Source: Occultella gossypii (GTDB taxonomy: Bacteria; Actinomycetota; Actinomycetes; Actinomycetales; Beutenbergiaceae). Taken from it: a stretch of 64,000 nt of DNA. This document shows positions 38,325-59,144 of the stretch, one piece after another. A model generated the notes under the pieces. That model was not told the DNA's origin and did no database searches. It saw only the letters and a program-made list of their open reading frames with translations. The position numbers and the translations under genes were made by a program. The first letter of the stretch is position 1. The number at the start of each line of letters is the position of its first letter. The stretch lies in NCBI RefSeq assembly GCF_019947135.1, contig NZ_JAGSHT010000013.1, forward strand, positions 1 to 64,000, in the 5' to 3' direction.

Positions 38325-38333
38325 GGAACCAGA

Positions 38334-43021: not shown

Positions 43022-43974
43022 GCTGCGGTCCTCTTCAGCCGGCCGGCCAGGAGCGGTCCCTGGAGCAGGGTGATGATCAGGGTGAACACGCCGAAGATGA
43101 CACCGACGGCGCACGCGAAGCCGTATCGCGGTGCGGCGATGCTCGCATCGAACGCGTACCGGTAGATGTACGTCGGCAACACGTCCGTGGAGAAGATCGG
43201 GCCACCGCCGGTGACGGCCTGGACCAGGTCGAACGTGTTCAGGCTGCGCTGGAAGGTCAGCAGCAGCACCACCACCGCGATCGGCATGATCACCGGGATC
43301 GTGATGTTGGCCAGCTGCTGGCGGGCACCGGCACCGTCGAGCTTCGCGGCCTCGTAGAGATCCTTCGGGACGGTCTGCAGCGCCGCCAACCAGTAGATCA
43401 GGGTGATCCCGAAGCCCTTCCAGATGTCCACCACGACGAGGGTGGGCAGCGCGACGTTCGGATCCCCGAGGAAGTTGACCGGGCGATCGACGAGGCCGAT
43501 ACCGAGCAACACCTCGTTGACCACGCCGCCGACCGGTGCGAGCAGCACCGCGATGACCAGGCCGATCACCGCCGTCGTGGAGACCACGGGCAGGAAGATG
43601 GCGAGCCGGTAGATGTTGCGCCCACGCAGGAGCACATTGTTCAGGAGCATCGCGAGGCACAGCGCGGCCGGCAGCTCGATGAACAGGGCGCCGAGGGAGA
43701 ACAGGAACGAGTTCCAGAACGCGTTCCAGAACGAGCTTGAGTTGAGCGCCTCCCGGAAGTTGTCGAGGCCGACGAACACCTCCGGCGGCCCGACACCGTC
43801 CCAGTCGAAGAAGGCGTAGGCCCAGGAGGCGACGATCGGCCAGAGGCTGAACGCGGTGAACAGCACCACCAACGGCACCAGGAACAACCAGCCCCAGAGC
43901 ACCGCCTGCCGTCGGGCGCGGGTCTTCGAGGGCGCCCCCGGCTTCGAGGGTGCCGTGATCGCGGCTGTGGTCAC
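43018..43974 (-). CDS. carbohydrate ABC transporter permease (MalF type)
   Basis: A 318-residue permease with EAA loop EAAKLDGAGARQQLANITIPV and about six spans. GGAGGTGAAG before the GTG at 43974 supports this start over an ATG 11 codons upstream. It is separated from the binding-protein gene by a stable hairpin that may make the permeases less abundant than the binding protein. Confidence 0.92.
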   Translation of the reverse strand: MTTAAITAPSKPGAPSKTRARRQAVLWGWLFLVPLVVLFTAFSLWPIVASWAYAFFDWDGVGPPEVFVGLDNFREALNSSSFWNAFWNSFLFSLGALFIELPAALCLAMLLNNVLLRGRNIYRLAIFLPVVSTTAVIGLVIAVLLAPVGGVVNEVLLGIGLVDRPVNFLGDPNVALPTLVVVDIWKGFGITLIYWLAALQTVPKDLYEAAKLDGAGARQQLANITIPVIMPIAVVVLLLTFQRSLNTFDLVQAVTGGGPIFSTDVLPTYIYRYAFDASIAAPRYGFACAVGVIFGVFTLIITLLQGPLLAGRLKRTAA

Positions 43975-44041
43975 CGCTTCACCTCCATCGTCGTGGCGGC
44001 AAGCCACCGTGGTAGCCCTGCACCCCGGGTCGGGACGGGCG

Positions 44042-44098: not shown

Positions 44099-45565
44099 TC
44101 AGGCGGTGTAGTCCTCGAGCGGGTCCCAGTCGGCGAAGGTCAACTGGCTCCGGAGGTCGGCGTTCTCCGCCTCGTACTGGACGATCAGGGCCTCGACCTG
44201 GGTGTCGATGGCTGCGGCCAGCGGCTCGTAGTCCACGTTGCTGACGATGGACTCCAGGTACGCGTTCTTGACGTCCAGGTCCGCATTGCCACCGGCATCG
44301 GCCCAGAAGGCCTCGGCGCCCTGTGCGAGCAGCTCCGGGTTCGGCGCGGTGCGGATGTCCGTGGCCGCCACGGCCAGGATCCCGGCCTGGTCCTCGTTCT
44401 CCTGGGCCTGGTCCTCCCACGCCACCTGGGAGGCGGTGAACGAGCCGAACTCCTCGTAGTAGGCCTTGTAGAAGTCGACCGAACCGAGGAAGTCCATGGC
44501 CGCGAGGGCCAGTTCGGGGTTGGCCGACTCCGCGGACATCGACCAGATCGGCTGGTGGGCGGCCGAACGCGCCGCGTAGGCGACGCGCCCGCTGTCCGGG
44601 AGCGGCATCGACGCGATCCCCAGGCCGATGTCCGGTGCGAGCTTGCGGATCTCGGCGACGTGCCAGGTGGCCGACGGGTACATCGCCAACCGCCCGGCTG
44701 CGAACTCGGTGAACGGCCGACCGCCGTCCCAGCTCTCCCAGCCGGGCATGTTCACGCCGTCCGCCTGCAGCTGCCGCCAGACCTCGACGGAGGCGACCAC
44801 GTTCGGGTTGGCCAGGTCCGGCTCTCCCGTGGTCAGGTTGATGCCCGGCTTCTGCGCGAACGGCTGCGCCACCTCGATGAAGTACGGCACCGAGACGGGC
44901 GCCACGCCGAACACGCTGCCGCCGCCGTTCTCGGTGATCGTCGTCGCCATCTCGACCATCTCCGACCAGGTCTCCGGCGGGGCGTCGTAGCCGTTCTCGG
45001 CGAGGATGTCGGTGTTGTACAGCCACAGGTGGGTGTAGCCCCAGTCGCCCCACACGAGCGGGATGCTGACGAGCTTGCCCTCCCGGTGCAGGCCGGAGGA
45101 CGTCGGCTCGAGCGACCCTTCCGGGAACCGGGCGGTGAAGTCGTCGTTGACGAGGTCATCCAGCGGGGCGACCCAGCCACGGTCGTAGAATCGGGTCAGC
45201 GCGGCGGCACCCTGCACCCGCATCACGTCCGGCCCTTCGCCCTGCTGGAACATCAGCTCGAGCGCGTTCAGCTGCTGGTCGGAGGGGTTCTCGATGATGT
45301 TCACCGTGACCCCGGGGTTGGCCTCCTGGAAAAGATCGAACTGGGCCCGGTAGAACTCGCTCGCACCGGGCGGGTCAGGAACCAGCGCAACGGTGATCTC
45401 ACCGCTGAGGCCGCCACCCTCGCCCCCGGAGGCGCTGCCGGCATCGGTGGGATCGTCGTCGCCGCCACCGACCAGGTTGCAGCCGGCGGTTGCCATCACC
45501 GCGCCCGCACCGAGCAGCACCGAGCGCCGCGAGAATCCTCGCGAACTTCCTCGTGTCGTCGTCAT
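44099..45565 (-). CDS. sugar ABC transporter substrate-binding lipoprotein, Tat-type signal
   Basis: A 488-residue SBP_bac_1-type protein. The signal has a twin-arginine motif and lipobox (SRRSVLLGAGAVMATAGC), so it is probably exported folded and lipidated. Mature motifs: EITVALVPDPPGASEFYRAQFDLFQEANPGV, DVMRVQGAAAL and the VWGDWGYTHLWLYNTDILAENG binding region. It heads the importer-lactonase-dehydratase unit and is divergent from a DapA-type aldolase gene. Confidence 0.92.
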   Translation of the reverse strand: MTTTRGSSRGFSRRSVLLGAGAVMATAGCNLVGGGDDDPTDAGSASGGEGGGLSGEITVALVPDPPGASEFYRAQFDLFQEANPGVTVNIIENPSDQQLNALELMFQQGEGPDVMRVQGAAALTRFYDRGWVAPLDDLVNDDFTARFPEGSLEPTSSGLHREGKLVSIPLVWGDWGYTHLWLYNTDILAENGYDAPPETWSEMVEMATTITENGGGSVFGVAPVSVPYFIEVAQPFAQKPGINLTTGEPDLANPNVVASVEVWRQLQADGVNMPGWESWDGGRPFTEFAAGRLAMYPSATWHVAEIRKLAPDIGLGIASMPLPDSGRVAYAARSAAHQPIWSMSAESANPELALAAMDFLGSVDFYKAYYEEFGSFTASQVAWEDQAQENEDQAGILAVAATDIRTAPNPELLAQGAEAFWADAGGNADLDVKNAYLESIVSNVDYEPLAAAIDTQVEALIVQYEAENADLRSQLTFADWDPLEDYTA

Positions 45566-45672: not shown

Positions 45673-45738
45673 GTCACCCTTCGGCTGGTGACAGCATTCA
45701 GCCCAGGACCCTTCGACGGGGAAGAAATGAGGCTACTG

Positions 45739-46653
45739 ATGCAGAACGTTGCGATCCGCGGGCTGGTGCCCGTACTGGCGACTCCGTTCACCGAGACGCT
45801 CGATCTGGACCGCGGTTCACTGCGCCGGCTCGTGGAGTTCCAGGCTCGATCGGGCGCCGACGGCGTCGCGATCTTCGGCATGGCGAGCGAGGCGTTCACG
45901 CTCACCACCTCCGAACGGGAGGCGATCCTGACCGACGTGGTCGCCGCCGCAGGCCCGATGCCCGTGGTGGCCGGTGTCGGCGCGACCGCCATCGCGCCCG
46001 CGCTGGAGCAGTTGCGCCAGCTGGCCGACGGCGGTGCCCGCGCGGCGATGGTGCTGCCCCCGTTCATGGTGAAGCCGGGCCCGGTCCAGCTCGTCGACTT
46101 CTACGCGACGCTCGCGGCCGAGGCGGTCCGGCTCGGCGTCAGCATCATGGTGCAGGACGCGCCCGGCGCCACCGGCGTGGCCATGACCCCGGAGCTGATC
46201 GTCGCCCTCTCGGACATCGACGGGGTGGACTCGGTCAAGGTGGAGGCCCCGCCGACACTGCCGAAGATGTGCGCGGTCGCGGCCGCGCTGGGCGATCGCC
46301 CGATGGCGATGCTCGGCGGGCAGAACGCCCAGTTCGTCCTCGACGAGTACGCCTGCGGGGCCGTCGGCACGATGCCTGCCTGCGAGTTCACGGACCTGCT
46401 CGCGGCGACCCTGGCCGCGTGGAACTCCGGAGATCGCGCCGGCGCCCGGGAGTCCTTCGCCCACCTGCTCCCGCTCATCGTCTGGGGCCTGCAGTCCGGT
46501 CCGGCCTGGGCGATCCACAAGGAGGTGCTGGTGCGGCGCGGCGTCATCTCCTCCGCTGCCGTGCGCGCCCCCGCCCAGCCGATCCCGGCACGGATGGCGG
46601 AACTGCTGACCGAGGTCCTTGCGCCACTGCCCCTGACTCCGGCTAGCGTCTGA
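45739..46653 (+). CDS. dihydrodipicolinate synthase (DapA) family lyase, catalytic Tyr replaced by Gln
   Basis: A 304-residue class I aldolase-family TIM barrel. The Schiff-base Lys is Lys167 in DSVKVEAPP. The keto-acid segment is AIFGMASEAFTLT. The residue 28 positions before the Lys, equivalent to DapA Tyr133 (Tyr133/Lys161 spacing), is Gln139 in IMVQDAPGATG, so the normal proton relay is altered. It is therefore not a housekeeping DapA; a 2-keto-3-deoxy-acid aldolase or dehydratase is likely in this setting. GAGG lies 6 nt before ATG 45739; ATG 45727 is an alternative start. Confidence 0.82.
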   Translation: MQNVAIRGLVPVLATPFTETLDLDRGSLRRLVEFQARSGADGVAIFGMASEAFTLTTSEREAILTDVVAAAGPMPVVAGVGATAIAPALEQLRQLADGGARAAMVLPPFMVKPGPVQLVDFYATLAAEAVRLGVSIMVQDAPGATGVAMTPELIVALSDIDGVDSVKVEAPPTLPKMCAVAAALGDRPMAMLGGQNAQFVLDEYACGAVGTMPACEFTDLLAATLAAWNSGDRAGARESFAHLLPLIVWGLQSGPAWAIHKEVLVRRGVISSAAVRAPAQPIPARMAELLTEVLAPLPLTPASV

Positions 46654-46736: not shown

Positions 46737-47462
46737 GTGCGCGCCGTCATCGTCGGTTCCAGTTCGGTCACAGCCCAGCGGATCGCCGAAGCGTTGGTGG
46801 CCGACGGCGCTCGGGTGGTCGGCATCAACTCCTCCGACTTCGAGCACCCGGCGCTGGCCGCGAACGTCGTCGCGGACATGTCCGATCCGTCGCAGTCCGA
46901 ACTGGCCATGGCGGCAGCCGTGGACATCCTTGGTGGCGACGGCATCGACGTGCTCATCACCGCGGCCGCCAAGCAGCTCGGTGGCCGGCTGCACGAGACC
47001 ACGGTGCAGACCTGGCGGGCCGTGCTCGCGGGCACCCTCGACACGACCTTCAACGCCATCCATGCGGCCGTACCCCACCTCGGACCGGGCTCCGCGATCG
47101 TCGCGCTGACCTCCGTGAACGCCTACCTCGCTCACCCCGGCAACTCGGCCTACGCGACCGCGAAGGGTGCCGTGCACGCGCTCATCACCCAGGCCAGCCT
47201 GGAGTACGCCCCGCGCGGCATCAGGGTGAACGCGGTGGCGCCCGCGCTGATCGACGGCCACAACGTGCCCGACGGTGCCGTCGGCTATCCGATGGGCCGC
47301 ACCCCCACGTCCGAGGAGGTGGCGCAGGCGGTCGCGTTCCTGGCGTCGCCGCGCGCATCCGGCATCAGCGGCGTGATCCTGCCGGTCGACGCGGGCCTGT
47401 CGGTGGCCTCCCCGGTCGCCTTCACGCGTCCCGCCATGGTGGAACAGTGGCGGAAGCCGTGA
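46737..47462 (+). CDS. SDR family oxidoreductase
   Basis: A 241-residue short-chain dehydrogenase. The catalytic Ser is in IVALTSVNAYLAH and Tyr/Lys in SAYATAKGAVHAL; IRVNAVAPALI follows. The cofactor motif is unusual: VGSSSVTAQRIAEAL replaces TGxxxGxG, so binding of NAD(P) may differ. AGGAG precedes the GTG. It would suit oxidation of a sugar or 2-keto-3-deoxy acid in the island's pathway. It is coupled to the DUF624 gene by a GTGA overlap. Confidence 0.86.
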   Translation: MRAVIVGSSSVTAQRIAEALVADGARVVGINSSDFEHPALAANVVADMSDPSQSELAMAAAVDILGGDGIDVLITAAAKQLGGRLHETTVQTWRAVLAGTLDTTFNAIHAAVPHLGPGSAIVALTSVNAYLAHPGNSAYATAKGAVHALITQASLEYAPRGIRVNAVAPALIDGHNVPDGAVGYPMGRTPTSEEVAQAVAFLASPRASGISGVILPVDAGLSVASPVAFTRPAMVEQWRKP

Positions 47463-48214
47463 CCGAGGCCGGCCACGAAGCGAATGCCCGACGGCGAGGG
47501 CCGGGTCGCGCCACCGGGTCGCCTTCGCGCGGCACGGGTGGGGAGCCCGGCTCCGGTGGCTCGAGCGGCTCCGGCACCTCGGGCGGCTCGGGCGCGTTCG
47601 GTCTGGTCGAGACGATCACCACCTGGATCTGCCGGCTCGCGGCACTGAACGTGACCTGGCTCCTGCAGACCCTGGCCGGCGGGGTGCTGCTCGGGATCGC
47701 ACCAGCCACGTCCGTGCTCCACCAGCAGCTGCGGACCGGACTGCTCGACGACGTCCAGCGCGGCTACTACCGCGCGTCCTGGGGGCGGTGGCGTCGTGAG
47801 TTCTGGCAGTCGCAGCAGCGCTACCTGATCCCGCTGCTGACCCCTGCTGTGCTCGGCTTCTACCTCTGGCTGCTGCGCGGGCAGGTGCTCACGATCACGA
47901 TTGCGATCGTGACCGCCGTCTACCTGTGCTGGCTGATCCACCTGCCCGCCGTCGCAGCCCGGGCGGACGAGGCGGACGCATCGGACACCACGGCCCCGCG
48001 GCGACCGACGGCCCTGTGGCTGCTCACACTGCGGAGCTTCGCGGCGACCCCGGTGCCGTTCGTTCTCGCCGGCCTGACCGGTGCCGTCGCCCTGGTGCTC
48101 GGCTACCTGTATCTGCCGGCCGCGCTCGTCTTCGCCGTGCCGGCAGTCCCGGCCCTGGCCGCGGCGATGGCCGCCCGGCACGTTCCCGAGCCGTTGCTTC
48201 TCCCTACGGACTGA
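47459..48214 (+). CDS. YesL/DUF624 family membrane protein
   Basis: A 251-residue membrane protein. A Gly/Ser-rich N-terminus is followed by LVETITTWICRLAALNVTWLLQTLAGGVLLGIAPAT, the conserved YesL/DUF624 opening, then three more hydrophobic segments. The family is almost always linked to sugar ABC importers for plant or complex polysaccharides, but its role is undefined. The GTG at 47459 overlaps the SDR stop; the GTG at 47447 is an alternative. Confidence 0.82.
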   Translation: MTEAGHEANARRRGPGRATGSPSRGTGGEPGSGGSSGSGTSGGSGAFGLVETITTWICRLAALNVTWLLQTLAGGVLLGIAPATSVLHQQLRTGLLDDVQRGYYRASWGRWRREFWQSQQRYLIPLLTPAVLGFYLWLLRGQVLTITIAIVTAVYLCWLIHLPAVAARADEADASDTTAPRRPTALWLLTLRSFAATPVPFVLAGLTGAVALVLGYLYLPAALVFAVPAVPALAAAMAARHVPEPLLLPTD

Positions 48215-48226: not shown

Positions 48227-49021
48227 TCACGCCGTGAGTGCGGTGAAGCCCAGTCCGACCGAGATCCGGTCCGCCTGTTCGATGAGCAGCATCGCGAGGT
48301 GGTCCTCGTTCTCGGGCAGGTTCATCGCGGAGAGCGGCCCGGAGACGGACATGGCGGCCACGACGGTGCCCGAGCGGTCCCGGATCGGCGCCGCAAGGCA
48401 GGCCCGGCGCAGCGCGAGCTCCTCGTGCTCGACGGCGTAGCCGCGGCCGCGCACGAGGTCGAGCTCCGCGAGCAGCTCGGTCAGCGACGTGATCGTGCTG
48501 TTCGTGTATCGCGGGTACTCGGCGCCGAGGAGCGCCTCCACGTCCGCCGCGTCGTGGTCGAGCAGCAGCGACTTGCCGAGCGCCGTCGCGTGCAGCGGGC
48601 CACCCCGCCCGATGAGCGTGGAGGCACGCGGGGCCTGCTTGCCCTCGAAGTTGCAGAGGTAGAAGAGCCGGTCGCCGGCGCGTTCCGCGACGTTCACACC
48701 GAGGCCGAGCTCGGCCGCCAGGTCCTGGGCCACCTGCCGCGCCTGGTGATGCACGGGGCTCTGGTTCAGGACCACGGCCGCCAGGTTCACCACCTCCGGG
48801 CCGAGCGAGTACAGGCCGCTCCGGGGGTCATGGCTCAGGAAGCCGAGCGAGAGCATCGCCCCGACCATCCGCGACACGGTGGACTGCCCCAATCCGCTCC
48901 CCGCGACCAGGTCGGCGATACGCTGTTGGGGATGCTGCGGCGTGAAGGCGGACAGCAGCGAGAGCGCCCGGTCGATACTCTGGGCGCCCTGCATCGGCTC
49001 CCGCTCGGCTGCCTTCGCCAT
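48227..49021 (-). CDS. IclR family transcriptional regulator
   Basis: A 264-residue regulator: N-terminal winged helix (SIDRALSLLSAFTPQHPQQRIADLVAGSGLGQSTVSRMVGAML) and C-terminal IclR effector domain (GGPLHATALGKSLL, RGYAVEHEELALRRACLAAPIRD). GGAGGGG lies 8 nt before the ATG. IclR regulators of this type often control sugar-acid catabolism. It probably governs part of the island and itself, since a 23-bp palindrome overlaps its -35 region. Confidence 0.9.
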   Translation of the reverse strand: MAKAAEREPMQGAQSIDRALSLLSAFTPQHPQQRIADLVAGSGLGQSTVSRMVGAMLSLGFLSHDPRSGLYSLGPEVVNLAAVVLNQSPVHHQARQVAQDLAAELGLGVNVAERAGDRLFYLCNFEGKQAPRASTLIGRGGPLHATALGKSLLLDHDAADVEALLGAEYPRYTNSTITSLTELLAELDLVRGRGYAVEHEELALRRACLAAPIRDRSGTVVAAMSVSGPLSAMNLPENEDHLAMLLIEQADRISVGLGFTALTA

Positions 49022-49064
49022 TCGTGTGCCCCTCCACTGGGTCGACTCTGATCGAGTCCGCCCC

Positions 49065-49107
49065 ACTATAGCGGATATTGGGACAGACATGCAGCATATG
49101 CATGTCT
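49065..49107 (-). promoter_or_regulatory. iclR promoter with 23-bp palindromic operator
   Basis: The -10 is TATAGT (minus strand, 49065-49070). The palindrome AGACATGCA-5-TGCATGTCT (49085-49107) has perfect 9-bp arms and covers the expected -35 (49088-49093). This arrangement indicates autorepression. Confidence 0.6.
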
Positions 49108-49154
49108 CATTCGGAGCGGTTGCCGCGATCCTGGTCGGGGGCACGACCCTGGCG

Positions 49155-52100
49155 TCAGACGGCGAGGAACCGCACGGCGCTGGCTCGGTGGTACCCGCCG
49201 GTGCGGACAGCCAGGTCGACGGTCGCGGAGGTGCCGCGCGCGAACGTCCAGGTGCCGAGCACGCGCCACTGGTTCGCCTGCGACGTCTGGTCCACGCTGA
49301 TCGTCTCGTCGCCGCCGGCATGGTGGACCACGTAGGTGGCCGCGGCGGTGGTCTCGACATTCGTCGGGTACCAGACGGCCACCTCGTACTCACCCGCGCT
49401 CGGCAGCGTCGGCGTCCAGGTCGCGACGGAGCCGTCGCCGTAGTCGAGGTGGCTGTACCGGGAGGCGTGTTGACCCCAACCCGCGAGGCTGCTGCCACGC
49501 CAGTCCCCCACCTCGGCGTACCCGGGTTCGCCGTCGACGTTGCTGACGATGACCCCGCGATCGGCCACGCGGACCAGGGCGTCGCTGAAGCCCACGCCGT
49601 CGACGATGGCCCGGAACCGGTAGGTGGTCCCGGGTCTGGCCTCGGGTGGCGCGGTGATCGTCCAGGTGTACCGGCCCTCGCTACGCGGCTCGACGACGTA
49701 CGTGTGTCCGGTCTTGCCCGGCCAACCCTCGGGTGGTGACATCCGGATGTATCCCCTGACCTCGACCGGACCCGCGTTCAGCACCGTGGCGGTGAGCACG
49801 ATCGTCTCCCCTGGCCCGGAGATCACGCCCTTGTCTGCGGTCAGATCGGCCACCCGGCGCGGGTCGATCACGGCCAGTTCCGCGCTGTCGAGCAGCACGC
49901 CGCCGTCCGGACCGGCCACCCACGTCGCGGTGGCCCCGACCGGGTGGATGCCCAGGTTCCCGGCCGCCCAACCGGCCGGTGGCGTGAGAGTGGTCTCGAG
50001 CAACCGGACGGAGCCCGCGGGGACGCGCAGCGGCTCCCACGGCGCACCCACCACCCAGCCCTCCGGGACCACCAGCGTGACCGTCACCGCGTCGATGTCC
50101 GCGGCCCCGCCGCGGACCCGGACCACGACGGGCACCGTCTCAGCAGGCGTGGTCGCCTCCCGCACGTCGACCTCCCCGGCGAGCGGGACGCCGTCGGGCA
50201 CCACCCCGGTGACCACGGGCGCCAGCGTGAGGGTCCGCTCGTCGGTTGCCACGCCGCCGACGACCAGACGGTAGGTGAAGGTGTCGGTCAGCTCGGGCAG
50301 CCGGATCGTCCACTCGTGCGGGTACGGCTTCTGGTCCGCGCTCGTGAAGGAGCCGTCGTTGACGTAGTACTCGAGCGTGGTGGGCCGCTCGGTGTCGATG
50401 AACACGTACGCGTCTGCACCGCGGCGGTCGGGCCGCGGGATCAGCATGGCCCGGGACAGGCCGAATCCGGTGGCCGGATCGGTGTCCTCGACGTGGAAGC
50501 TCCGGGAGGTGCGGTCCACCGCACCCGGCTGCCACTGCCACGGGACAGGCCGGCCGGCGCCGCGAACGATCACGGCGGTGATGCCGTGCGGGCTCACCTG
50601 GATCGGCAACCGCCCGCGCATGACCCGGCGACGCCGTGGTGCGCCGCCGTCCGCGATCACATCCACCTCGTAGTCGCGGCGGGCGTCGACGCCGCTCAGG
50701 TCCGGGTCGAAGGTGACCACGCCGGCCTCGACCCGCGCGGAGGTGTTCGTGACGCTGAGGTAGAGGTTGTCGTTGCCGACCCCCGTGAGCCAGTTCAGCC
50801 GGTGGTTGTTGAGCGTGACGATGCCGCGGGGGAAGTACGGCCACACCCCCTCCTCGCCATAGAACGTGCCGGGACGGTGTCCGTAGACCGAGAACTTGAA
50901 GAACACGTAGTTCGTCTCGAACTCGCGCGGGAAGGCGACCATTCCCCCGGACCGGACGAAGTGCTCGCTGAGGAGGTAGTCGAGCGTGAGCCCGAGTTGT
51001 CCGGGCATGTGGCTGAAGTACAGCGACGTGAGGCCGGGCGGGCCCTGCAACGGGAAGTCCGGCTTCAGGTGCGCGGCCACGAACTGCCGGTAGTAGTAGC
51101 CCGGGTAGTTCGTCCAGCGACCGATCACGAGGTTGTGCGCCACCGCGGCCATCATCTCGTCGCCGGTGTAGTGCGCCAGGCGTAGCAGGAATGGTGCCCA
51201 CCCGGGGATCATCGTGAACCCGCCGGGCGGGTCGAGGCGGGTGCTGTCCCCGATCTTGAACGTGGTGAGCTGTTCGAACGTCAGCCCGTTGGTCGCGACC
51301 ACCCACGCCGGTACGGATTCGGAGGGCACCTCGGTGTTGGGGTACTCGGGGAGCGCGCCGCCCTCCCAGTGGTCCAGCTGGGCGGAGATCACGTGCCCCG
51401 TCGGTGCGTCCACGTCGCCCCCGGGGACCGGCCGCACCATGGTCTGGGTGATGAACCGCGCTGCCTCCGCGTGCGCTCCGGCGAGGATCTCGGGGTTGCC
51501 GGTGAGCTCGTACGCGACAACCATCTCGGTCCAGCCCTTGACGTAGCCGTAGGAGAACGCGCTCTCCGCCGAGTTCGTCGTGTACGGGGTCAGGATCTCG
51601 TCCCGGGCGTACCGCTCCGCCTCGGACTCCAGTTGGGTCAGGTGCGCGCTGTCCCCGGTCAGCACGTAGCTCTGCATCGGCGTGCTCACCGACGTCCGGT
51701 ACGCCTTCGTGGTCCTGGCCAGCACGGCGTCGGTCGCGAGCTGGTGGATCCCGCCGGCCTGCCCGCGCAGCTGCCGAGTCATCGGCACCAGTGTGGAGGC
51801 GTCCCCGCTGACCCCACCGAGGCGCCACAGGGTCCGGTTTCCGTAGATCGGCGCCTCCTTGACCGGGGTGAAGCTGAACGTCGGCCGGGAGATCTGGTAT
51901 TCGAGCGTGGGCCGGACGCGCTTGTCGTAGAAGTCGTCCGCCTCGTCCGGGTGGGCCGTGAGGTAGAACGCGGTGAGGAGGACGCTCGCCGTGGTGATCC
52001 GCACGGAGAATTCGTTCTCGGGGTCGACGAAGCCCTTCGCGCGCGACCACCAACCGCTGAACGAGCGGAGGAACTCCTCGGAGTCGTCGCCGTCGGGTTG

Positions 52101-53159
52101 GACCCGGATGAGATCGACGAGATTGTGCACGGTCTCGGTCAGGGACGTGTCGAAGACGTTCTCGCGGTAGGCCGCGTAGGCGTACTCGCCGCGGCACAGG
52201 TCCACGTACGTGTCGTAGAGCGCACCGGCAGCGGCGACGAGTCCGAACGCGTAGCCGACCGATTCGCCCGGCTCGAGGTGGGCGAGCAACCCGGCGTGCG
52301 GACGGTAGATGGTGGGCTGCACGTCGTCGGAGTCGTTGCGCAGGCTCATCCCGAACGGCTGGCCGTCCGAACGCAGTTCCCGCTCATGCTCGAACTCCAT
52401 CACCTCGGCGGGGATGTACACGCCCAGGGTCGCCTGCCCGTCCCCGGGCAGTCCGTCGAGCCGGCGCTGGACCAGGGCCATCGGCGCCCACAGCTCCCAG
52501 GCCGCCAGGCTGTGCTGGTCGCCGATCACGCGAGCGTGCTGCAGTGCCCCGCACAACACCTCGACGGCGTCGTCCTCGGTCGCGGTGTCGAACGACTCGT
52601 AGGCCACGATGTAGTCGTCGGCTACGGACGCCTCCAGGGACCAGTGCGCCTCGGGCCGGTCGTGCGCCAGCGACCAACGGACCGTGAGGGCGTACCGCCC
52701 TTCGGCGATGCTCCGGAGTTCCACGGTCTCCTCGTCCAGCTGGACGACGGAGTCGAATCCGACCCAGTTCGGCGTCATCGTGTCGAAGTACCGGTGCCGG
52801 GTACCGGCGTCAGGACCGGTCAGCACCACCCATTGCTCGTCGAAGCGACGGTCCGCGGAGGTCACCGGGACCCAGGTGCCGTCGACACCGACGAACAGGT
52901 CGCGCACCACGGTGGCGCCGCCCTCCCAGACGGCGTGGTGGAACTCCAGTCGGTAGGCCTGGTTCTCGATCGTGACGGCTGGGGTCAGCGTCAGGCCGGG
53001 CTTGTCCAGCCGTCGTAGGGCGTCCGGCAGCGGGCCCTGCCCGGCGCCCGGATCGGCGCCGGCGGATAGGGCGGGGCCGCCGATCAGCGGTGGTAGAGCC
53101 GCCGTGGCGACCAGCAGCCGGAGGGCGCTGCGGCGGGAGATGGAGGGGTCGAGCGGCAT
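49155..53159 (-). CDS. giant Tat-exported putative carbohydrate-active enzyme A
   Basis: A 1334-residue exported protein. The Tat signal is SRRSALRLLVATAALPPL; mature sequence begins near residue 36. An N-terminal beta-rich domain (about 45-330) precedes a helical region (about 340-740) that looks like an (alpha/alpha) toroid, with NYPGYYYRQF, FYGEEGVWPYFPRGIV and LNWLTGVGND. NEW3-like domains follow (near 1010-1195; VPEGWVVGAPWEPLRVPAGS), then a golvesin C-terminal-like domain (1204-1334; YAEVGDWRGSSLAGWG). It is homologous throughout to the divergent protein B. I cannot place the central domain in a known GH or PL family. The context suggests polysaccharide cleavage outside the cell. Confidence 0.8.
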   Translation of the reverse strand: MPLDPSISRRSALRLLVATAALPPLIGGPALSAGADPGAGQGPLPDALRRLDKPGLTLTPAVTIENQAYRLEFHHAVWEGGATVVRDLFVGVDGTWVPVTSADRRFDEQWVVLTGPDAGTRHRYFDTMTPNWVGFDSVVQLDEETVELRSIAEGRYALTVRWSLAHDRPEAHWSLEASVADDYIVAYESFDTATEDDAVEVLCGALQHARVIGDQHSLAAWELWAPMALVQRRLDGLPGDGQATLGVYIPAEVMEFEHERELRSDGQPFGMSLRNDSDDVQPTIYRPHAGLLAHLEPGESVGYAFGLVAAAGALYDTYVDLCRGEYAYAAYRENVFDTSLTETVHNLVDLIRVQPDGDDSEEFLRSFSGWWSRAKGFVDPENEFSVRITTASVLLTAFYLTAHPDEADDFYDKRVRPTLEYQISRPTFSFTPVKEAPIYGNRTLWRLGGVSGDASTLVPMTRQLRGQAGGIHQLATDAVLARTTKAYRTSVSTPMQSYVLTGDSAHLTQLESEAERYARDEILTPYTTNSAESAFSYGYVKGWTEMVVAYELTGNPEILAGAHAEAARFITQTMVRPVPGGDVDAPTGHVISAQLDHWEGGALPEYPNTEVPSESVPAWVVATNGLTFEQLTTFKIGDSTRLDPPGGFTMIPGWAPFLLRLAHYTGDEMMAAVAHNLVIGRWTNYPGYYYRQFVAAHLKPDFPLQGPPGLTSLYFSHMPGQLGLTLDYLLSEHFVRSGGMVAFPREFETNYVFFKFSVYGHRPGTFYGEEGVWPYFPRGIVTLNNHRLNWLTGVGNDNLYLSVTNTSARVEAGVVTFDPDLSGVDARRDYEVDVIADGGAPRRRRVMRGRLPIQVSPHGITAVIVRGAGRPVPWQWQPGAVDRTSRSFHVEDTDPATGFGLSRAMLIPRPDRRGADAYVFIDTERPTTLEYYVNDGSFTSADQKPYPHEWTIRLPELTDTFTYRLVVGGVATDERTLTLAPVVTGVVPDGVPLAGEVDVREATTPAETVPVVVRVRGGAADIDAVTVTLVVPEGWVVGAPWEPLRVPAGSVRLLETTLTPPAGWAAGNLGIHPVGATATWVAGPDGGVLLDSAELAVIDPRRVADLTADKGVISGPGETIVLTATVLNAGPVEVRGYIRMSPPEGWPGKTGHTYVVEPRSEGRYTWTITAPPEARPGTTYRFRAIVDGVGFSDALVRVADRGVIVSNVDGEPGYAEVGDWRGSSLAGWGQHASRYSHLDYGDGSVATWTPTLPSAGEYEVAVWYPTNVETTAAATYVVHHAGGDETISVDQTSQANQWRVLGTWTFARGTSATVDLAVRTGGYHRASAVRFLAV

Positions 53160-53234
53160 CGTTGCCACACCTTTCCGGTGCCTCAGGGACGCCGGCGACA
53201 CTCCGACGACGCCAGCCTGTTGAACTGGTGATCC

Positions 53235-53264
53235 ATATACTGAACACCGACAAACGCTAGCAAC
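53235..53264 (-). promoter_or_regulatory. promoter of giant enzyme A with CGCTAGCA and TGATCCATATAC boxes
   Basis: -35 TTGCTA overlaps CGCTAGCA (53256-53263) and -10 TATATG overlaps TGATCCATATAC (53230-53241). Both boxes are repeated on the other side of the intergenic region, so a common regulator is plausible. Confidence 0.45.
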
Positions 53265-53323
53265 GCGCCGATCGCTTGGCAAGACATCCTTTCCATCAGG
53301 TGGTTGTCGAATCCATATTTCAG

Positions 53324-53331
53324 CGCTAGCG
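53324..53331. promoter_or_regulatory. CGCTAGCG box in giant enzyme B promoter
   Basis: This perfect octamer is identical to the one upstream of the dehydratase gene at 38334-38341, 8 bp before a possible -10 (TATAGA). CTAG is rare in this window, so the coincidence is notable. Confidence 0.4.
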
Positions 53332-53523
53332 TCCGTGATATAGATCCGTAACCTGTTCGGTGCTGCGGGGGTGTCCTCGGTCACGGTCGGCACGTACGGC
53401 GTCAGGGAATCAGTGCCGATCCATGCCCGCGACGTCCGCTCCGAGCCGACCCGCCATCCCATGCCGCCCGATTCGACCCGCGGGCATCGACGCCCGCGGT
53501 CACCATGAAAGGGAGACCAGATC

Positions 53524-56500
53524 GTGAACGAACACACGAACGGTCCGTTCCAGACCACACGGCGCCAGGCGATCGGCCTGCTGATCGGTGCCGGCGTGTT
53601 GCCTGCGCTGACCAATGTGGGCTTCGCCGGGGCCGCCCAGGCGGACCCGCTGCCGCGGCTACCCCTGACCGCGCCGTTGCGCGGCGTCGACAAGCCCAAC
53701 CTGAGTTTCGAAGAGCTGACCACCATCTCCGGGCGGAACCACCGGATCACCTTCCACCGGGCCACCTGGGACGGCCCCGACGGCGGCCGGGTCGGCGCGA
53801 TCGTGCGCGACACCCAGGTCCGCTCGGGTTCGACCTGGCTGACGGCGAGCGGCGAGTCGGCCCGGTTCGACGAGCAGTGGGTGGTGGTCGCCGGGGACCC
53901 GACGTTCCTCGGCGGCGGCAACTACTACCCGTCCGGGACCCCGCACTGGCTCGCCGCCGAATCCGTGAACCAGATCGGCGACACCGTGGTGGAACTGACC
54001 GCGGGTGTGGACGACGTGCTCGATCTGACGATCCGCTGGGACGTCTCGGGGAGCCTGCCGCAGGTGCAGTGGTCCCTGACCGTGCATGCGGACGACGGCT
54101 ACGTGGTCGGCTACCAGGCGAATGCGGTCACGGACGAGGACGATGTCACCGAGGTGCTCTGCGGCTCGCAGCAGCACGCCCGGGTGATCGGCTCCGCGAC
54201 CGCGATCAAGGCGTGGGAACTGTTCGCCCCGATGGCCCTGGTCTCCTACGAGGTCGACGGCGTCACGCTCACCACCGGCGTGTCCATCCCGGCGGACGTG
54301 CTCGAGTTCGAGCACGAGCGGTTCATCGGCCCCGAGGACCAGCCGTTCGCGATGAGCCTGCGCAACGAGTCGAAGCAGGTGCAGGCGGTCGCGTACGCGC
54401 CGCCGGGCGGCCTGCGCTCGGCCCTGACCGCGGGTCAGTCGGTCGGCTACGCGTTCGGCGTGGTCATCAGTGCCGCACCGTTGTACGAGACCCAGACGGC
54501 GCTCTCCCGCGCGGAGTACGGGTTCGACCGCTACCGCCGGAACATCTACGACACCTCGCTGACGGACACGGTCCACAACATCATGGACCTGGTCGCGATC
54601 GAGCCCGACGGCGATGACTCGGTCGACTTCATCCCGTCGGTCTCGGGGTGGTGGAACCGGGACAAGGGGTTCGCGAACATCGAGGCGGACCAGAACGTGC
54701 GCACCTCCGTGGCCAGCGTGCTGCTGAGCGCGAACCTGCTCGCCTCCCGGCCCGAGGCGGCCGGCGACTTCTGGCAGCGGCGGGCCCGCCCGCTGCTGGA
54801 ACACATCATCTCCCGCCGGGACATCGGCCATACGCCCAAGGCCGGCTTCCACAACTACTCGCCGCTGGGCGGCTGGGTGGGGGACGCGAACACGATCGTG
54901 CCGGTCTGGGATCTGCTCCAGGGCAGGTCCGCCGGGGTGCACGCGATCGCACTGGAGACGATCTGGCGCAAGTACCAGTTCCAGGGCCGCACCCCGATGA
55001 ACATCCCGCTCTCGGCGTACCTGTTCAGTGGTGACGAGGCCTGGCTCGCCCAGGCCGTCGAAGTGGGCAAGTGGTACGCCCGCCACAACATCGACACCCC
55101 GTACACCGTGAACCAGGGCACGTCCGCGTTCGGGTACACGTACGTCAAGGCCTGGCTGGAGCTGTTCGTGCTGTACGAGCTCACCGGTGACTCCGAGCTG
55201 CTCGCGGCGGCACACCGCGAGGCGAAACGGTACATGGGCCTTTTCGAGGTGCGGCCGGTCCCGGAGACCACGATCACGTCCCCGGTGGGCGAGCCCATCG
55301 ACGACATGTACTACAAGTGGGAGGTCAGTGACGGCATCCCGACGTACCCGCGGGAACTGCCGATCACCGAGGAGAACGTTCCGGCCTGGATGGCCTCGAC
55401 CACCGGCCTGACGTTCGAGCAGCTCAGCACCTACCTGAAGACCCCCGGCGGCGGCTTCACGCTGAACCCGATCTGGGCGCCGTTCCTGCTCCGCCTCGCG
55501 CAGGTGACCGGCGACGACTTCATCCGGGACATGGCGCACAACATGGTGGTGGGCCGGTTCACGAACTACCCCGGCTACTACAACCGGCAGTTCGTCACGG
55601 CGCCGATGCGGCCCGAGTACCCGATCGAAGGTCCGCCCGGTACCAGCAGCATCTACTTCCACCACGCGCCGGCCCAGCTCGGCCTGGCGATGGACTACCT
55701 GATCAGCGAGCACGAGTCCCGCTCCGAGGGTCAGATCACGTTCCCGAGCGCGTTCGAGTGCGTGTTCGTGTACTTCCGGTACCGCACCTACGGGCACACG
55801 CCGGGCTCGTTCTACGGCGATGACGGCGTGTGGCCGTACTTCCCGAAGGGGATCGTCGAGGTCACCAACCCCCAGCTGAACTGGCTCACCGCGGTCTCGG
55901 CCGACGCGTTCTACCTCAGCCTCACCAGCGAGTCGGCCCGCGTCGAGAACGCGCAGGTGACCTTCGACCAGGAGCTGACCGGGATCGACCCGGGCCGCAC
56001 CTACGAGGTCGAGATCCGGATGGACAACGGTGCGCCCCGCAGCGGACGCATCGTGCGGGGCCGTCTCCAGGCCCGGGTCGCCGCGCACGGCATCACGACC
56101 GTCAAGATCCCGGGCGCGGGCGCACTCCAGCCCTGGCAGCAGCTGCAGGAGACGCCGGACCGGGCCGCCGTGAGTTACCACTTCGACGACTTCGACAACT
56201 CCGGTGGCACCACCGGGGACCGCGTCTACGGGATCACCCTGCCCCGGCCGGACCGCAGCGGCTACGACGTGTACATCCAGTCCAGCGCGGCGGACGGTAC
56301 CGGTGTCCGCCTCGACTACCGGGTCGCCGGTGGCGACTGGGTGCAGGCCCCGGAGAAGGTCTATCCCTACGAGTGGACCATCGGTGTGGACGACCTCACC
56401 GCGACGTTCGACTACCGGGTCACGGTGGCCGGCGTGGCCCGCCCGGACCGCTCGTTGTACCTGCCCGCCACGGTGACCGGCGCGCTACCCGCCGGGCAGA

Positions 56501-58233
56501 CCGTGGGCGGCGACCTGCTCCTGCGACCCTCGACCACGCCGTCGGACCCGGTCACGGTGACCGCACGGATCCGCAACACCTCCGGCGCTACCGCCACCGG
56601 GATCGAGGTCAGGGTCTATGCCCAGACCGGCTGGACGCTCGAACCGGAGTCGCCCGCGCCCACCGAGCTCGCCGACGGCGAGGTGGCCGACGCCACGTTC
56701 ATCGTCACCCCCACCGCCGGCGCCACCCCGCGTTCGTACCCGGTGACCGGGCGGGTGCTGTTCAACGGAACCGGGAACCAGGTCCTCACGCCGGGCGCGG
56801 TCACGGTGTTCGCGGCCACCGATGTGATCGAGTGCGTCTCCGACCGGAGGGCGCTGCCCGGCCCGGGCGCGAGCGCCACCATCAGCCTCACCCTGATGAA
56901 CCGCGGGCCGATCGCCCGGACCGGGACGGCCACCCTCGGCCTGCCGTCCGGCTGGACCGCGGAGCCGGCGGCGGCGGACTGGTCCATCGAGGCCCGGTCC
57001 CTCGCGGAACTGACGTTCACGGTCACCGCGACCAACGCCCCGCCGGGCAGCGGCGGCTCGGTCACCGTCAACCCGGGTGCCGGGATGGCGGCCACCTCGA
57101 TCGCCTACACCGTCGGTGATCCGAACGACGTGATCATCGGGCCGGATGCGCAGGGATACTCGGAGGTCGGCAACTGGCTGGCGAGCAGCCTCGCCGGGCC
57201 GGACGGGTCGAAGTCCCGGTACAGCCCGGAGAGCCAGTACGGCGGCCAGGCGATCTGGACGCCCACGATCGCGACGGCCGGCACGTACGACGTATCGATC
57301 TGGTACCCGACCAACAACCAGACCTCCGAGGACGTCCTCATCGAGGTGACCAGCCCCACCGGGGCGGACACCCACCACATCAACCAGCAGGAGCTCGCGG
57401 GCCAGTGGCGCCTCATCGGCTCCTATGACCTGGCCCCGGGGGAACCCGCGTCGGTGGTCATGACCGCGATCTCCGGCCTGTACACCCGGGCCCACTCGGC
57501 GCGGTTCCGGCTCCAGGGTGCGCCCAACCCGCCCGGTGTCGAGGTGACCGGCGCGCCGGCCCACGTCGACCCGGCGACCGGTGCCGACCTCACGGTGACG
57601 GTGACCGGTTCGGACACCGACTTCACCGGCGAGGCCGTGGTGCAGCTGCCAGACGGGTGGGTGGTCGATCCGCCGTCCGCCCCGGTCGAGGTCGCCCAGG
57701 GCGAGAGCGTGGAGCTGACGTTCGCCGTGCAGCCGCCTGCCGACGCCCCGACCGACACCGCCTTCGAGGGCTCGGTGGTGGTCGCCGACGCGACGGAGTC
57801 GTTCGCCGCGGTGATCGGAGCGCCGCCGGACCCGCTGATCCTGGACAACCACTCCCCCGAGTACTCGGAGGAGGGCACCTGGACCTCGAGCAGCCTGGCG
57901 GGCTGGGACGGTCGAGCGTCCCGGTGGGCCCATGGCAGCAACGGCGCCCGCACCGGCAACTGGGCGCCGGCCCTCGCCGAGGGCGGACGCTACCTGGTGT
58001 CCGTCTGGTACGGCACGGACGCCAACACCACCCGCGCTGCGACCTATGACGTGGTGCAGTCCGGAGGCACCAGCGCCACGGTGCGGATCGACCAGCAGGA
58101 ACGTGCGAACTCGTGGCGCACGATCGGCGCCTTCGACCTCGACCCTGCGACGGCGCACGTGCGGCTGCGCTGTGAGATGGCCGGGCACCACCGGCTGAAC
58201 GGGGTGATGTTCACCCCGGTGGTCGCGCTCTGA
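53524..58233 (+). CDS. giant Tat-exported putative carbohydrate-active enzyme B
   Basis: A 1569-residue paralogue of protein A. The Tat signal is TTRRQAIGLLIGAGVLPAL, with likely cleavage near AAQADP. Beta-rich domain near 45-330, helical region near 342-740 (NYPGYYNRQF, FYGDDGVWPYFPKGIV, LNWLTAVSAD), NEW3/CARDB-like domains near 990-1195, a first golvesin-like domain (1205-1328; YSEVGNWLASSLAG), another NEW3-like domain (1335-1430) and a second golvesin-like domain (1437-1569; YSEEGTWTSSSLAGWDG). GGGAG precedes the GTG by 8 nt. The duplicated C-terminal unit makes it longer than A. Golvesin-like and NEW3 domains usually accompany secreted polysaccharide-degrading enzymes. No substrate can be named. 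Confidence 0.8.
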   Translation: MNEHTNGPFQTTRRQAIGLLIGAGVLPALTNVGFAGAAQADPLPRLPLTAPLRGVDKPNLSFEELTTISGRNHRITFHRATWDGPDGGRVGAIVRDTQVRSGSTWLTASGESARFDEQWVVVAGDPTFLGGGNYYPSGTPHWLAAESVNQIGDTVVELTAGVDDVLDLTIRWDVSGSLPQVQWSLTVHADDGYVVGYQANAVTDEDDVTEVLCGSQQHARVIGSATAIKAWELFAPMALVSYEVDGVTLTTGVSIPADVLEFEHERFIGPEDQPFAMSLRNESKQVQAVAYAPPGGLRSALTAGQSVGYAFGVVISAAPLYETQTALSRAEYGFDRYRRNIYDTSLTDTVHNIMDLVAIEPDGDDSVDFIPSVSGWWNRDKGFANIEADQNVRTSVASVLLSANLLASRPEAAGDFWQRRARPLLEHIISRRDIGHTPKAGFHNYSPLGGWVGDANTIVPVWDLLQGRSAGVHAIALETIWRKYQFQGRTPMNIPLSAYLFSGDEAWLAQAVEVGKWYARHNIDTPYTVNQGTSAFGYTYVKAWLELFVLYELTGDSELLAAAHREAKRYMGLFEVRPVPETTITSPVGEPIDDMYYKWEVSDGIPTYPRELPITEENVPAWMASTTGLTFEQLSTYLKTPGGGFTLNPIWAPFLLRLAQVTGDDFIRDMAHNMVVGRFTNYPGYYNRQFVTAPMRPEYPIEGPPGTSSIYFHHAPAQLGLAMDYLISEHESRSEGQITFPSAFECVFVYFRYRTYGHTPGSFYGDDGVWPYFPKGIVEVTNPQLNWLTAVSADAFYLSLTSESARVENAQVTFDQELTGIDPGRTYEVEIRMDNGAPRSGRIVRGRLQARVAAHGITTVKIPGAGALQPWQQLQETPDRAAVSYHFDDFDNSGGTTGDRVYGITLPRPDRSGYDVYIQSSAADGTGVRLDYRVAGGDWVQAPEKVYPYEWTIGVDDLTATFDYRVTVAGVARPDRSLYLPATVTGALPAGQTVGGDLLLRPSTTPSDPVTVTARIRNTSGATATGIEVRVYAQTGWTLEPESPAPTELADGEVADATFIVTPTAGATPRSYPVTGRVLFNGTGNQVLTPGAVTVFAATDVIECVSDRRALPGPGASATISLTLMNRGPIARTGTATLGLPSGWTAEPAAADWSIEARSLAELTFTVTATNAPPGSGGSVTVNPGAGMAATSIAYTVGDPNDVIIGPDAQGYSEVGNWLASSLAGPDGSKSRYSPESQYGGQAIWTPTIATAGTYDVSIWYPTNNQTSEDVLIEVTSPTGADTHHINQQELAGQWRLIGSYDLAPGEPASVVMTAISGLYTRAHSARFRLQGAPNPPGVEVTGAPAHVDPATGADLTVTVTGSDTDFTGEAVVQLPDGWVVDPPSAPVEVAQGESVELTFAVQPPADAPTDTAFEGSVVVADATESFAAVIGAPPDPLILDNHSPEYSEEGTWTSSSLAGWDGRASRWAHGSNGARTGNWAPALAEGGRYLVSVWYGTDANTTRAATYDVVQSGGTSATVRIDQQERANSWRTIGAFDLDPATAHVRLRCEMAGHHRLNGVMFTPVVAL

Positions 58234-58370: not shown

Positions 58371-59144
58371 ATGCGCAAGGATCAGGATGGCCACGAGATC
58401 TGGGTGATCATCGGGCAGTCGAACACCGCCTGCGGCGATGGATTCGACCCTGTCCTTGACGCGCCGGATCCGCGCGTGGACCAGTTCGTCGGCCGAGGAC
58501 CGCTGTTCGGGCAGGTGATTCCGGCCGCCGAGCCGCTGCTCCATCCGATCGACATGGGTGTCCGAATCGGGTTCGGGCTGACCTTCGGCAAGCTACGTGC
58601 CCAGACGCTGCCCGAGCACCAGCGCGTGCTGCTGGTCCCGTGTGCGAAGGGCGGCACCGGGTTCCGGCCGTGGGGCGGCTACACCTGGGACCGCCACGAT
58701 CTGGACGCTCCGTTCAACTTCTTCCGGTTCACGATCATGCAGACGGAAGCGGCCCTGGCGGCTGGGCCGAACAACCGGATCGGCGGCTTCCTGTGGCACC
58801 AGGGGGAACACGACACCACCCCCGAGGCCCACCCGCTCTACGCCGACCGACTTGACGATCTGATCGGTGGCCTGCGCGCCCGGTTCGGTGCGGACCTGCC
58901 GTTCATCCTCGGGCAGCTGAACCCCGACCACATGCAGCGGGTCGCGGCCGATCAGCCCGGCTACGCCGCGGTAGATCGGATCCACGCCGAAACCCCGGCG
59001 CGGGTGGCCCGCACCGCCTTCGTCACTGGCCCGGCCGGTAGCTACAACTCCGAGGCGGACACCATCCACTACAACGCCGCGGGCCAACGCGAGCTCGGCC
59101 GACGCTACTTCGCGGCCGCCCGGGAGCTGCTCGACCCGGCCTAG
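58371..59144 (+). CDS. sialate O-acetylesterase-like (CE6-type) SGNH esterase, no signal peptide
   Basis: A 257-residue SGNH-clan esterase of the CE6/sialate O-acetylesterase-like type: WVIIGQSNTACG (Ser nucleophile), GGFLWHQGEHDT (conserved WHQGE) and DTIHYNAAGQRELG (Asp/His). Such enzymes remove O-acetyl groups from hemicellulose or sialic acids. There is no signal peptide or span, so it probably deacetylates imported oligosaccharides in the cytoplasm. GGGGG precedes the ATG. It lies behind enzyme B but after a terminator. Confidence 0.84.
   Translation: MRKDQDGHEIWVIIGQSNTACGDGFDPVLDAPDPRVDQFVGRGPLFGQVIPAAEPLLHPIDMGVRIGFGLTFGKLRAQTLPEHQRVLLVPCAKGGTGFRPWGGYTWDRHDLDAPFNFFRFTIMQTEAALAAGPNNRIGGFLWHQGEHDTTPEAHPLYADRLDDLIGGLRARFGADLPFILGQLNPDHMQRVAADQPGYAAVDRIHAETPARVARTAFVTGPAGSYNSEADTIHYNAAGQRELGRRYFAAARELLDPA

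Follow-up and report, generated by a model that had tools for sequence, protein, structure and literature searches.

A rare family of giant, predicted-secreted proteins encoded beside sugar-acid genes in Actinomycetota: candidate glycan-cleaving enzymes with a six-hairpin-like core

What do two giant proteins, encoded back to back among genes for sugar-acid metabolism, do for the bacterium that carries them? The question is raised by a 64,000-nucleotide stretch of Occultella gossypii DNA (NCBI RefSeq assembly GCF_019947135.1, contig NZ_JAGSHT010000013.1, positions 1 to 64,000), referred to here in its full length as the window. An earlier note on this DNA had picked out two divergent genes, for proteins A and B of 1334 and 1569 residues, as paralogues, and this pairing is borne out: the gene ends were confirmed, and B is 43% identical to A over A residues 8-1331 (E = 0), a homology far above chance. 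Judged from sequence and context, A and B appear to belong to a real, rare secreted family with a strong metabolic setting, of which our searches found no description. We propose, at chances that we put just short of even, that they represent an undescribed (alpha/alpha)6-type family of secreted enzymes that cleave glycans, with catalysis, site and substrate deduced from predicted structure, conservation and gene neighbourhood.

Results

The core of A and B appears to lie apart from known families

As the earlier note had reported, the motifs NYPGYY-RQF, FYG-GVWPYFP-GIV and LNWLT are common to A and B. We built a conservation alignment of 57 rows and call a residue kept when at least 56 of them hold it; ten motif residues of A (Y685, P686, G687, Y688, G768, V772, W773, P774, N789 and W790) are kept in this sense. 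The genome of O. gossypii encodes five full-length paralogues, namely A and B (on C35), C5:6981-10925, C33:33188-37108 and C33:53203-57156, the other four being 38-51% identical to A. The two C33 copies lie about 16 kb apart. For A, a longer mechanical open reading frame (ORF; 1588 residues, starting at TTG 53921), which runs into B, was set aside.

The central region could not be assigned to a known glycoside hydrolase (GH) or polysaccharide lyase (PL) family by the earlier note, and this holds for Pfam, NCBIfam, PDB sequence and profile comparisons alike. No Pfam family scored over its cut-off within residues 40-1000 of A and B, and none matched the core of A at E up to 10. Against PDB sequences (phmmer with A and two profiles, E up to 10), the core gave only chance-level or sub-cut-off matches, and in NCBIfam A was without a match and B had a single repeat match, below cut-off, at residues 1004-1030. 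The commonest weak Pfam match was GH127_cat (PF07944), found in 9 of 46 rows with a best E of 0.0044, A not being among them; Glyco_hydro_88 (PF07470) matched one of the 46 (E 0.12).

To compare profiles directly, we used hhalign with PL26 (11 of 11 fetched rows), GH95 (11 of 17), GH88 (7 of 10), GH127 (25 of 30) and AGE (10 of 12). The rows left out were weaker or mostly partial matches, none was dropped for a stop codon, and one GH95 row (L125) was shortened near a contig end. The strongest signal was with GH95, at 75% over 84 of 430 columns and 68.5% in the reverse direction, the two directions covering profile columns 194-277 and 169-272, respectively. AGE gave 38% over 45 columns, GH127 37% over 67, GH88 5.6% and PL26 1.4%, while four unrelated families stayed at or below 1.1% in either direction. 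Among control pairs of known families, GH127-AGE reached 47%, GH127-GH88 5.3%, AGE-GH88 4.7%, PL26-GH95 2.4% and the rest at most 1.1%. The AGE and GH127 signals are thus not above the controls; the GH95 signal is, though short, since no control exceeds 47% and the best involving GH95 itself is 2.4%.

Profile searches of the own genome listed genes other than A and B. A PL26 profile (PcRGLX_3rd, PF21346) listed one gene, at C35:331654, which is neither A nor B; a GH95 profile (Glyco_hydro_95_cat, PF22124) listed two other genes but not A or B; and neither protein was among the matches to the GH127 profile. GH127 enzymes have a zinc site with several cysteines and a catalytic cysteine in the toroid. 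The single cysteine kept in the 57 rows, C203, lies in the N-terminal domain, so that this zinc site is not found in the family. None of the tests run assigns the core to GH127, GH95, GH88, PL26 or PL27. We take the profile results to mean that A and B belong with the six-hairpin folds, perhaps closest to GH95, and form a family of their own. Among the paper titles listed by literature searches, none is on this family, a result that speaks for those searches only. Outside the window but on the same contig, genes of PL26, GH95 and GH127 type lie close together at G000:C35:301259-335178, probably a pectin or rhamnogalacturonan locus.

A sandwich-toroid-sandwich core is predicted

An AlphaFold2 model of A47-986, built with 46 natural sequences (model residue + 46 = A residue), had a mean predicted local confidence (pLDDT) of 88.4 and a pTM of 0.92. 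It predicts a galactose-mutarotase-like beta-supersandwich, an (alpha/alpha)6-type toroid, a second beta-sandwich and a fibronectin type III (fn3)-like domain, in that order (Table 1). The central helical toroid suspected in the earlier note is therefore present in the predicted models and superposes on six-hairpin enzymes. The six-hairpin assignment is a call from predicted models and superpositions with Z up to 14.9, the hairpins not being counted individually.

In VIA-align superpositions, the N-terminal domain matched galactose mutarotases and the sandwich domains of glycosidases and PL26 at Z 13-17.7. The toroid, folded alone at a pLDDT of 75, a poorer model than in context, matched the GH88 unsaturated glucuronyl hydrolase 3wiw (Z 14.9, 281 residues aligned, 4.2 A), AGE-type epimerases (Z about 14), GH76 6shm (13.9) and PL27 5no8 (13.7). 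Glycosidases, epimerases and lyases all use this toroid fold, and the near-equal Z values across families indicate a common fold, not a function. Multi-domain alignments with PL26 5xqj and GH94-type phosphorylases had a root-mean-square deviation (rmsd) of 20-26 A, which means that only single domains superpose. Foldseek with the whole model returned partial matches only, the best being GH101 2zxq (E 1.1e-7, TM 0.19, rmsd 23.7); with the lone toroid, the best row was lanthipeptide synthetase 8car (E 6e-4, TM 0.37), which we read as fold only.

Kept residues are concentrated in the first three domains

The supersandwich has 29 kept residues and the toroid 54; another 14 lie in A739-868 and 5 beyond A868. 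This corresponds to 0.11-0.13 per residue in the sandwich, toroid and second sandwich vs. 0.04 after residue 868. This concentration points to the first three domains as the likely working core. In the supersandwich, E200, C203, Q207, H208, E222 and H258 are kept, four of them within the motif E200-V-L-C-G-x-x-Q207-H208. The toroid keeps the acids E381, E420, E565, E629, D667 and E732 together with Y685, Y688 and H717, and also the basic residues R332, R373, K375, R414, R425, R568, R576, R660 and R681. Model confidence is lowest at the YPGYY motif (A685-689), where four of the five residues are invariant: pLDDT drops below 50 over three or more successive residues here and in just one other place. 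Conserved yet not placed by the model, it may form a mobile active-site loop.

The proteins are probably exported and carry golvesin and NEW3 modules

In both N-termini, as read from the sequence, a hydrophobic stretch comes after a pair of arginines, and at least 22 of 23 rows retain R9 and R10 of A. A and B are therefore probably secreted by the twin-arginine translocation (Tat) route, in agreement with the signals that the earlier note had described. Its NEW3-like and golvesin-like C-termini, with a second golvesin unit in B, were also recovered by Pfam over the cut-offs. Golvesin_C (PF25275) scored 81.8 bits in A and 127.2 in B (cut-off 31.6). NPCBM_assoc/NEW3 (PF10633), with a cut-off of 24.4, scored 25.6 bits in A, just over, and 61.1 in B, with two such stretches in A and three in B. 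Both kinds of domain have been linked to binding. A had one significant PDB sequence match, at E 1.2e-10, to the golvesin-type C-terminus of xanthan lyase 6f2p from Paenibacillus.

Sugar-acid genes recur beside the family

We then analyzed 45 loci of the family; the gene-cluster counts take in the window as a locus. Gene calls came from a GC3-based script that missed or mis-started some genes (in L057 and L076 the giant gene itself was lost in calling, although both loci match it), and cluster labels rest on one to several Pfam-checked members. MR/MLE genes were present at 27 loci, ABC permeases at 27, IclR regulators at 24, DHDPS-family genes at 22 and short-chain dehydrogenases (SDRs) at 17. 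Less frequent were Pfam-supported solute-binding proteins (SBPs; 16), SGL lactonases (14), AXE1 esterases (12), DUF624 proteins (8), KDPG-aldolase-like (7) and KDG-kinase-like genes (3), Udh-like dehydrogenases (5) and sulfatases (5). Two members each of the KDPG-aldolase-like and KDG-kinase-like clusters were checked by Pfam, and one each by NCBIfam, where they were below cut-off. Cluster 9 (11 loci) is a lipoprotein that we did not count as an SBP; the one member tested was without a Pfam match and resembled XylA only weakly among PDB sequences (E 0.0005). Among the clusters common to at least 12 loci, no other glycosidase or lyase was found.

At least three of seven core kinds of gene, drawn from ABC importer, IclR regulator and the sugar-acid genes for MR/MLE, DHDPS-type, SDR and SMP-30 lactonase proteins, occurred together in 27 of the 45 loci. 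These belong to Microbacterium, Agromyces, Jiangella, Micromonospora and kin, Actinopolymorpha, Salinibacterium, Arachnia, Actinocatenispora, Haloactinopolyspora, Ruania and Occultella. The association with sugar-acid genes is thus repeated across many lineages, eleven genera or groups in all. The own genome of 5.84 Mb holds 22 MR/MLE genes over the cut-off, about one per 265 kb. With loci of at most 23 kb, chance does not explain an MR/MLE gene at 27 of 45. The earlier note had taken the surrounding genes to suggest an extracellular polysaccharide as target, and this breadth of association makes such a target reasonable.

In the window itself (Table 1), the MR/MLE protein nearest the pair (40009..41193) scored below all NCBIfam cut-offs, its best match being galactonate dehydratase at 164.5 of 311 bits. 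PDB relatives of the DHDPS-family protein include L-2-keto-3-deoxyarabonate dehydratase 3fkk. No operator common to the SBP/DHDPS and A/B intergenic regions was found among 15-mers with up to two mismatches. A DUF5107 protein (59195-61087) lies on the opposite strand after the esterase and is also kept in Occultella aeris.

Several further neighbours were seen at individual loci. For unlabelled genes, 74 representatives were scanned from 337 genes in 28 loci, and 25 of 85 families were listed. A dehydrogenase at L052:18562-19329, also present at four other Jiangella loci, has uronate dehydrogenases as its best PDB matches (E 7e-22). Its reading as a uronate dehydrogenase is weakened by NCBIfam, in which it matches Azf, a glucose-6-phosphate dehydrogenase, at 106.5 of 400 bits; its true substrate might reveal the released sugar. 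FAD_oxidored (PF12831) genes directly follow the giant genes in two genomes (L070:14589-15875 and L086:13795-16095), and in an Agromyces locus one ORF (L063:1598-4534) joins a GH16 domain to three golvesin domains. Sulfatase-cluster genes (one member Pfam-checked) in L066, L080, L083, L088 and L089 suggest that some homologues meet a sulfated polymer.

B belongs to a conserved locus to which A is an addition

The earlier note had treated the back-to-back pair as an enzyme system, a view that comparison within the genus does not sustain. The window is collinear with the O. aeris locus L069, positions 40709-49118, 53294-58233 and 59175-63987 matching at 91-93% DNA identity. At L069, both A and the esterase gene (58371-59144) are absent, with 1.2 kb of other sequence in the place of A. 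A search of this gap for a remnant of A found none (best tblastn E 0.33), and no orthologue of A was present in the three same-genus genomes searched, where the best identity was 51%. The absent segments, 49118-53294 and 58233-59175, look as if two accessory genes had been placed flanking B.

B, by comparison, has an orthologue in L069 with 96% identity over the central region, and matching genes occur in G001 and G002. Between B and the L069 gene, dN is 0.025 and dS 0.189 (dN/dS about 0.13), indicating that B is under purifying selection. Ruania rhizosphaerae has the gene set, with a B-type gene adjoining IclR. In a quick tree, B groups with the O. aeris and Ruania orthologues, and A forms a long branch without a supported group. 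Together, the absence of A and the esterase from O. aeris and the retention of B there mark the system formed by B and its neighbours as the conserved one. To it, the own genome adds A and the SASA esterase, either gained here or lost in others.

The family is rare and found in Actinomycetota

Ten of 39 genomes searched, the own genome included, had a match, nine of them full-length and the tenth (G008) in the golvesin part only. With a toroid profile, matches were obtained in 10 genomes out of 396 from the order; out of 396 from the phylum, the own genome was the single match. These searches scored at most four candidates per genome, so paralogues are under-counted. When 84,980 species genomes were scanned by two peptide patterns, 45 loci were found in 35 genomes, all Actinomycetota: Occultella, Ruania, Jiangella and kin, Actinopolymorpha, Kribbella, Micromonospora and kin, Salinibacterium, Microlunatus, Agromyces, Microbacterium, Arachnia and a Propionibacteriaceae metagenome-assembled genome. 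A plasmid search gave five records, all matching the golvesin region only. Coverage beyond Actinomycetota consists of the two-pattern scan and the plasmid search, and as far as these matches go the family appears to be rare and confined to that phylum.

Table 1. Features of the A/B locus in the window
Feature	Coordinates	Strand	Basis or remark
MR/MLE (enolase superfamily) protein	37209..38477	-	Pfam
MR/MLE (enolase superfamily) sugar-acid dehydratase-like protein	40009..41193	-	Pfam
SMP-30/gluconolactonase-like protein	41203..42294	-	Pfam SGL, E 2.5e-53; true start probably downstream
ABC sugar permease	42077..43057	-	Pfam BPD_transp_1; start not fixed
ABC sugar permease	43018..44007	-	Pfam BPD_transp_1; start not fixed
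Extracellular solute-binding protein	44099..45565	-	SBP_bac_1
DHDPS-family aldolase/dehydratase	45727..46653	+	Pfam, scanned from 45733; start assumed ATG 45727
SDR	46737..47462	+	
DUF624 membrane protein	47465..48214	+	Start not fixed
IclR-family regulator directly downstream of A	48227..49093	-	Pfam; start assumed
Protein A, giant predicted-secreted multidomain protein, 1334 residues	49155..53159	-	ATG 53159 to stop 49155, stop included
Golvesin_C domain of A, residues 1203-1331	49167..49553	-	Pfam
NPCBM_assoc/NEW3 of A, residues 1116-1184, best of two stretches	49608..49814	-	Pfam
fn3-like beta domain, about A901-981	50217..50459	-	Model secondary structure; weak fn3 matches in 2/46 rows
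Beta-sandwich after toroid, about A746-868, with FYG-GVWPYFP and NWLT motifs	50556..50924	-	Model secondary structure, conservation
(alpha/alpha)6-type toroid, A315-738, including YPGYY (A685-689)	50946..52217	-	Models, VIA matches, conservation
Beta-supersandwich (galactose-mutarotase-like), A47-314, with invariant E-V-L-C-G-x-x-Q-H at A200-208	52218..53021	-	Model, VIA matches, conservation
Intergenic region between divergent A and B starts, 364 bp	53160..53523	.	
Protein B, paralogue of A, 1569 residues	53524..58233	+	GTG 53524 to stop 58233, stop included
Toroid of B, homologous to A toroid	54475..55746	+	Alignment, profile match
First Golvesin_C of B	57145..57468	+	Pfam
Second Golvesin_C of B	57838..58161	+	Pfam
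SASA-family carbohydrate esterase directly downstream of B	58371..59144	+	Pfam; synteny

Discussion

If A and B are glycan-cleaving enzymes as we propose, the catalytic unit is probably the first 820 or so residues after the signal, with supersandwich, toroid and following beta-sandwich forming one core; the putative active site would lie where the toroid cleft meets the sandwich. The C-terminal NEW3 and golvesin domains would anchor the enzyme on its polysaccharide, which may often be acetylated, because esterase genes adjoin. The core would release a small oxidizable or acidic sugar, to be taken up by the ABC importer. Inside the cell, the SDR, lactonase, MR/MLE dehydratase and DHDPS-type aldolase (or KDG kinase and KDPG aldolase) would degrade it via a 2-keto-3-deoxy sugar acid; a pathway from sugar to lactone, aldonate, 2-keto-3-deoxy acid and then pyruvate plus an aldehyde would fit, in that presumed direction. 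The likelier chemistry would be hydrolysis by conserved Glu/Asp residues of the toroid, with beta-elimination next; hydrolysis is slightly favoured because the lactonase and aldonate-dehydratase-like genes imply a saturated sugar. That cleavage is exo is our guess, made because the widespread neighbour clusters include no other glycosidase or lyase.

Several observations weigh against this reading. At 18 of the 45 loci no more than two core kinds were counted, and at nine none, though contig ends shorten 11 of the 45; the loci are also not independent (nine are from Microbacterium and eight from Occultella). The three other own-genome paralogues (L010, L012 and L046) are without nearby MR/MLE genes, although for the C5 copy a contig end is only 7 kb away; these three may therefore have another target. 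The checked MR/MLE and SDR genes and the window DHDPS gene all fell below NCBIfam cut-offs among the matches listed, the nearest being a Jiangella MR/MLE protein with 265.9 of 311 bits for galactonate dehydratase, so that they do not point to one particular sugar. Some loci hold other glycosidases (GH78, GH51-type, GH29-type, GH2, GH16 and GH20), and the giant protein therefore need not be the only cutting enzyme. In addition, the profile signals are short (45-84 of 430 columns for GH95, AGE and GH127, and at most 109 overall), and a Z of about 13-15 between helical toroids can reflect a common arrangement. A bolder version of the proposal, which we regard as improbable, is a new CAZy family in which catalysis takes place at the interface of the supersandwich (E200-V-L-C203-G-x-x-Q207-H208) and the mobile YPGYY loop, an acidic sugar is freed from a polysaccharide that is acetylated and whose degradation is not yet known, and the five paralogues are each tuned to a different polymer.

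The main rival is a polysaccharide lyase, in which the toroid/sandwich core removes a uronate by beta-elimination through Y685, Y688, H717 and R681, and the SDR and KDG kinase/aldolase handle the unsaturated product. It owes this place to PL27, a sandwich-plus-toroid family described in PMC8377490 as acting by beta-elimination, and to the many invariant basic residues of the toroid, which suit an anionic substrate. The superpositions of PL27 5no8 on the toroid (Z 13.7) and PL26 5xq3 on the N-terminal domain (Z 15.1) are in its favour, as are the KDG-kinase-like and KDPG-aldolase-like genes in some loci and the DUF624 genes beside the locus. The PL26 profile signal of 1.4% and the lack of any PL26 or PL27 chain among the PDB sequence matches speak against it, however, and the MR/MLE and lactonase genes point instead to a saturated sugar oxidized to an aldonate. 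The Tyr/His/Arg reading, moreover, comes from general lyase chemistry rather than from a located site, and on balance we think a lyase unlikely, if still a serious contender.

It is distinctly less probable that A and B are noncatalytic surface scaffolds or receptors that bind a glycan and deliver it to other enzymes and the ABC importer. The binding associations of golvesin and NEW3 domains and the absence of a known catalytic family over cut-off would suit such a role, but kept residues are dense in the core (0.11-0.13) and sparse after residue 868 (0.04), and the clusters common to at least 12 loci offer no glycosidase or lyase for a scaffold to serve. We consider it very unlikely that the core is a diverged GH95-like or GH127-like six-hairpin glycosidase missed by Pfam cut-offs. 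The GH95 signal does exceed every known-family control, and GH127_cat is the commonest weak Pfam match; A itself, however, gives none at E up to 10, the GH95 match spans 84 of 430 columns in stretches that partly differ between directions, and a single invariant cysteine in the N-terminal domain is unlike the Cys-rich GH127 zinc site.

Were A and B indeed enzymes, they would be founders of a new secreted polysaccharide-degrading family, and a long piece of secreted protein that is now unannotated in Actinomycetota would gain a function. The ready gene set of importer, regulator, dehydratase and aldolase would then allow the substrate to be found by growth tests, for which cultured relatives exist in Microbacterium, Agromyces, Jiangella and Occultella.

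Among known systems, the PL27 L-rhamnose-alpha-1,4-D-glucuronate lyase (BACCELL_00875, 5no8) shares the order of beta-sandwich then toroid, the toroids aligning over 279 residues at 4.4 A; unlike A, it has an architecture lacking the extra beta-sandwich, fn3-like, NEW3 and golvesin domains, and it was not among the PDB sequence matches at E up to 10. The PL26 exo-rhamnogalacturonan lyase (5xq3/5xqj) may share the sandwich-toroid order: its N-terminal domain aligns over 230 residues at 3.8 A, and its domains match singly, with 26 A over the whole alignment. A has no PL26 Pfam domain at E up to 10, and the canonical PL26 of this genome is a separate gene. The six-hairpin enzymes of GH95, GH127, GH88 and AGE share the toroid fold and short profile signals, strongest for GH95, whereas the core of A is without a Pfam match to them at E up to 10. 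GH94-type phosphorylases have a supersandwich, an (alpha/alpha)6 domain and a C-terminal sandwich in that order, as predicted for A, and 436-484 residues could be aligned; the whole-alignment rmsd is 20-23 A, so that only single domains superpose, and neither Pfam nor PDB sequences gave a match. The xanthan lyase 6f2p of Paenibacillus, finally, matches A in its golvesin-type C-terminal domain only, its catalytic part giving no match.

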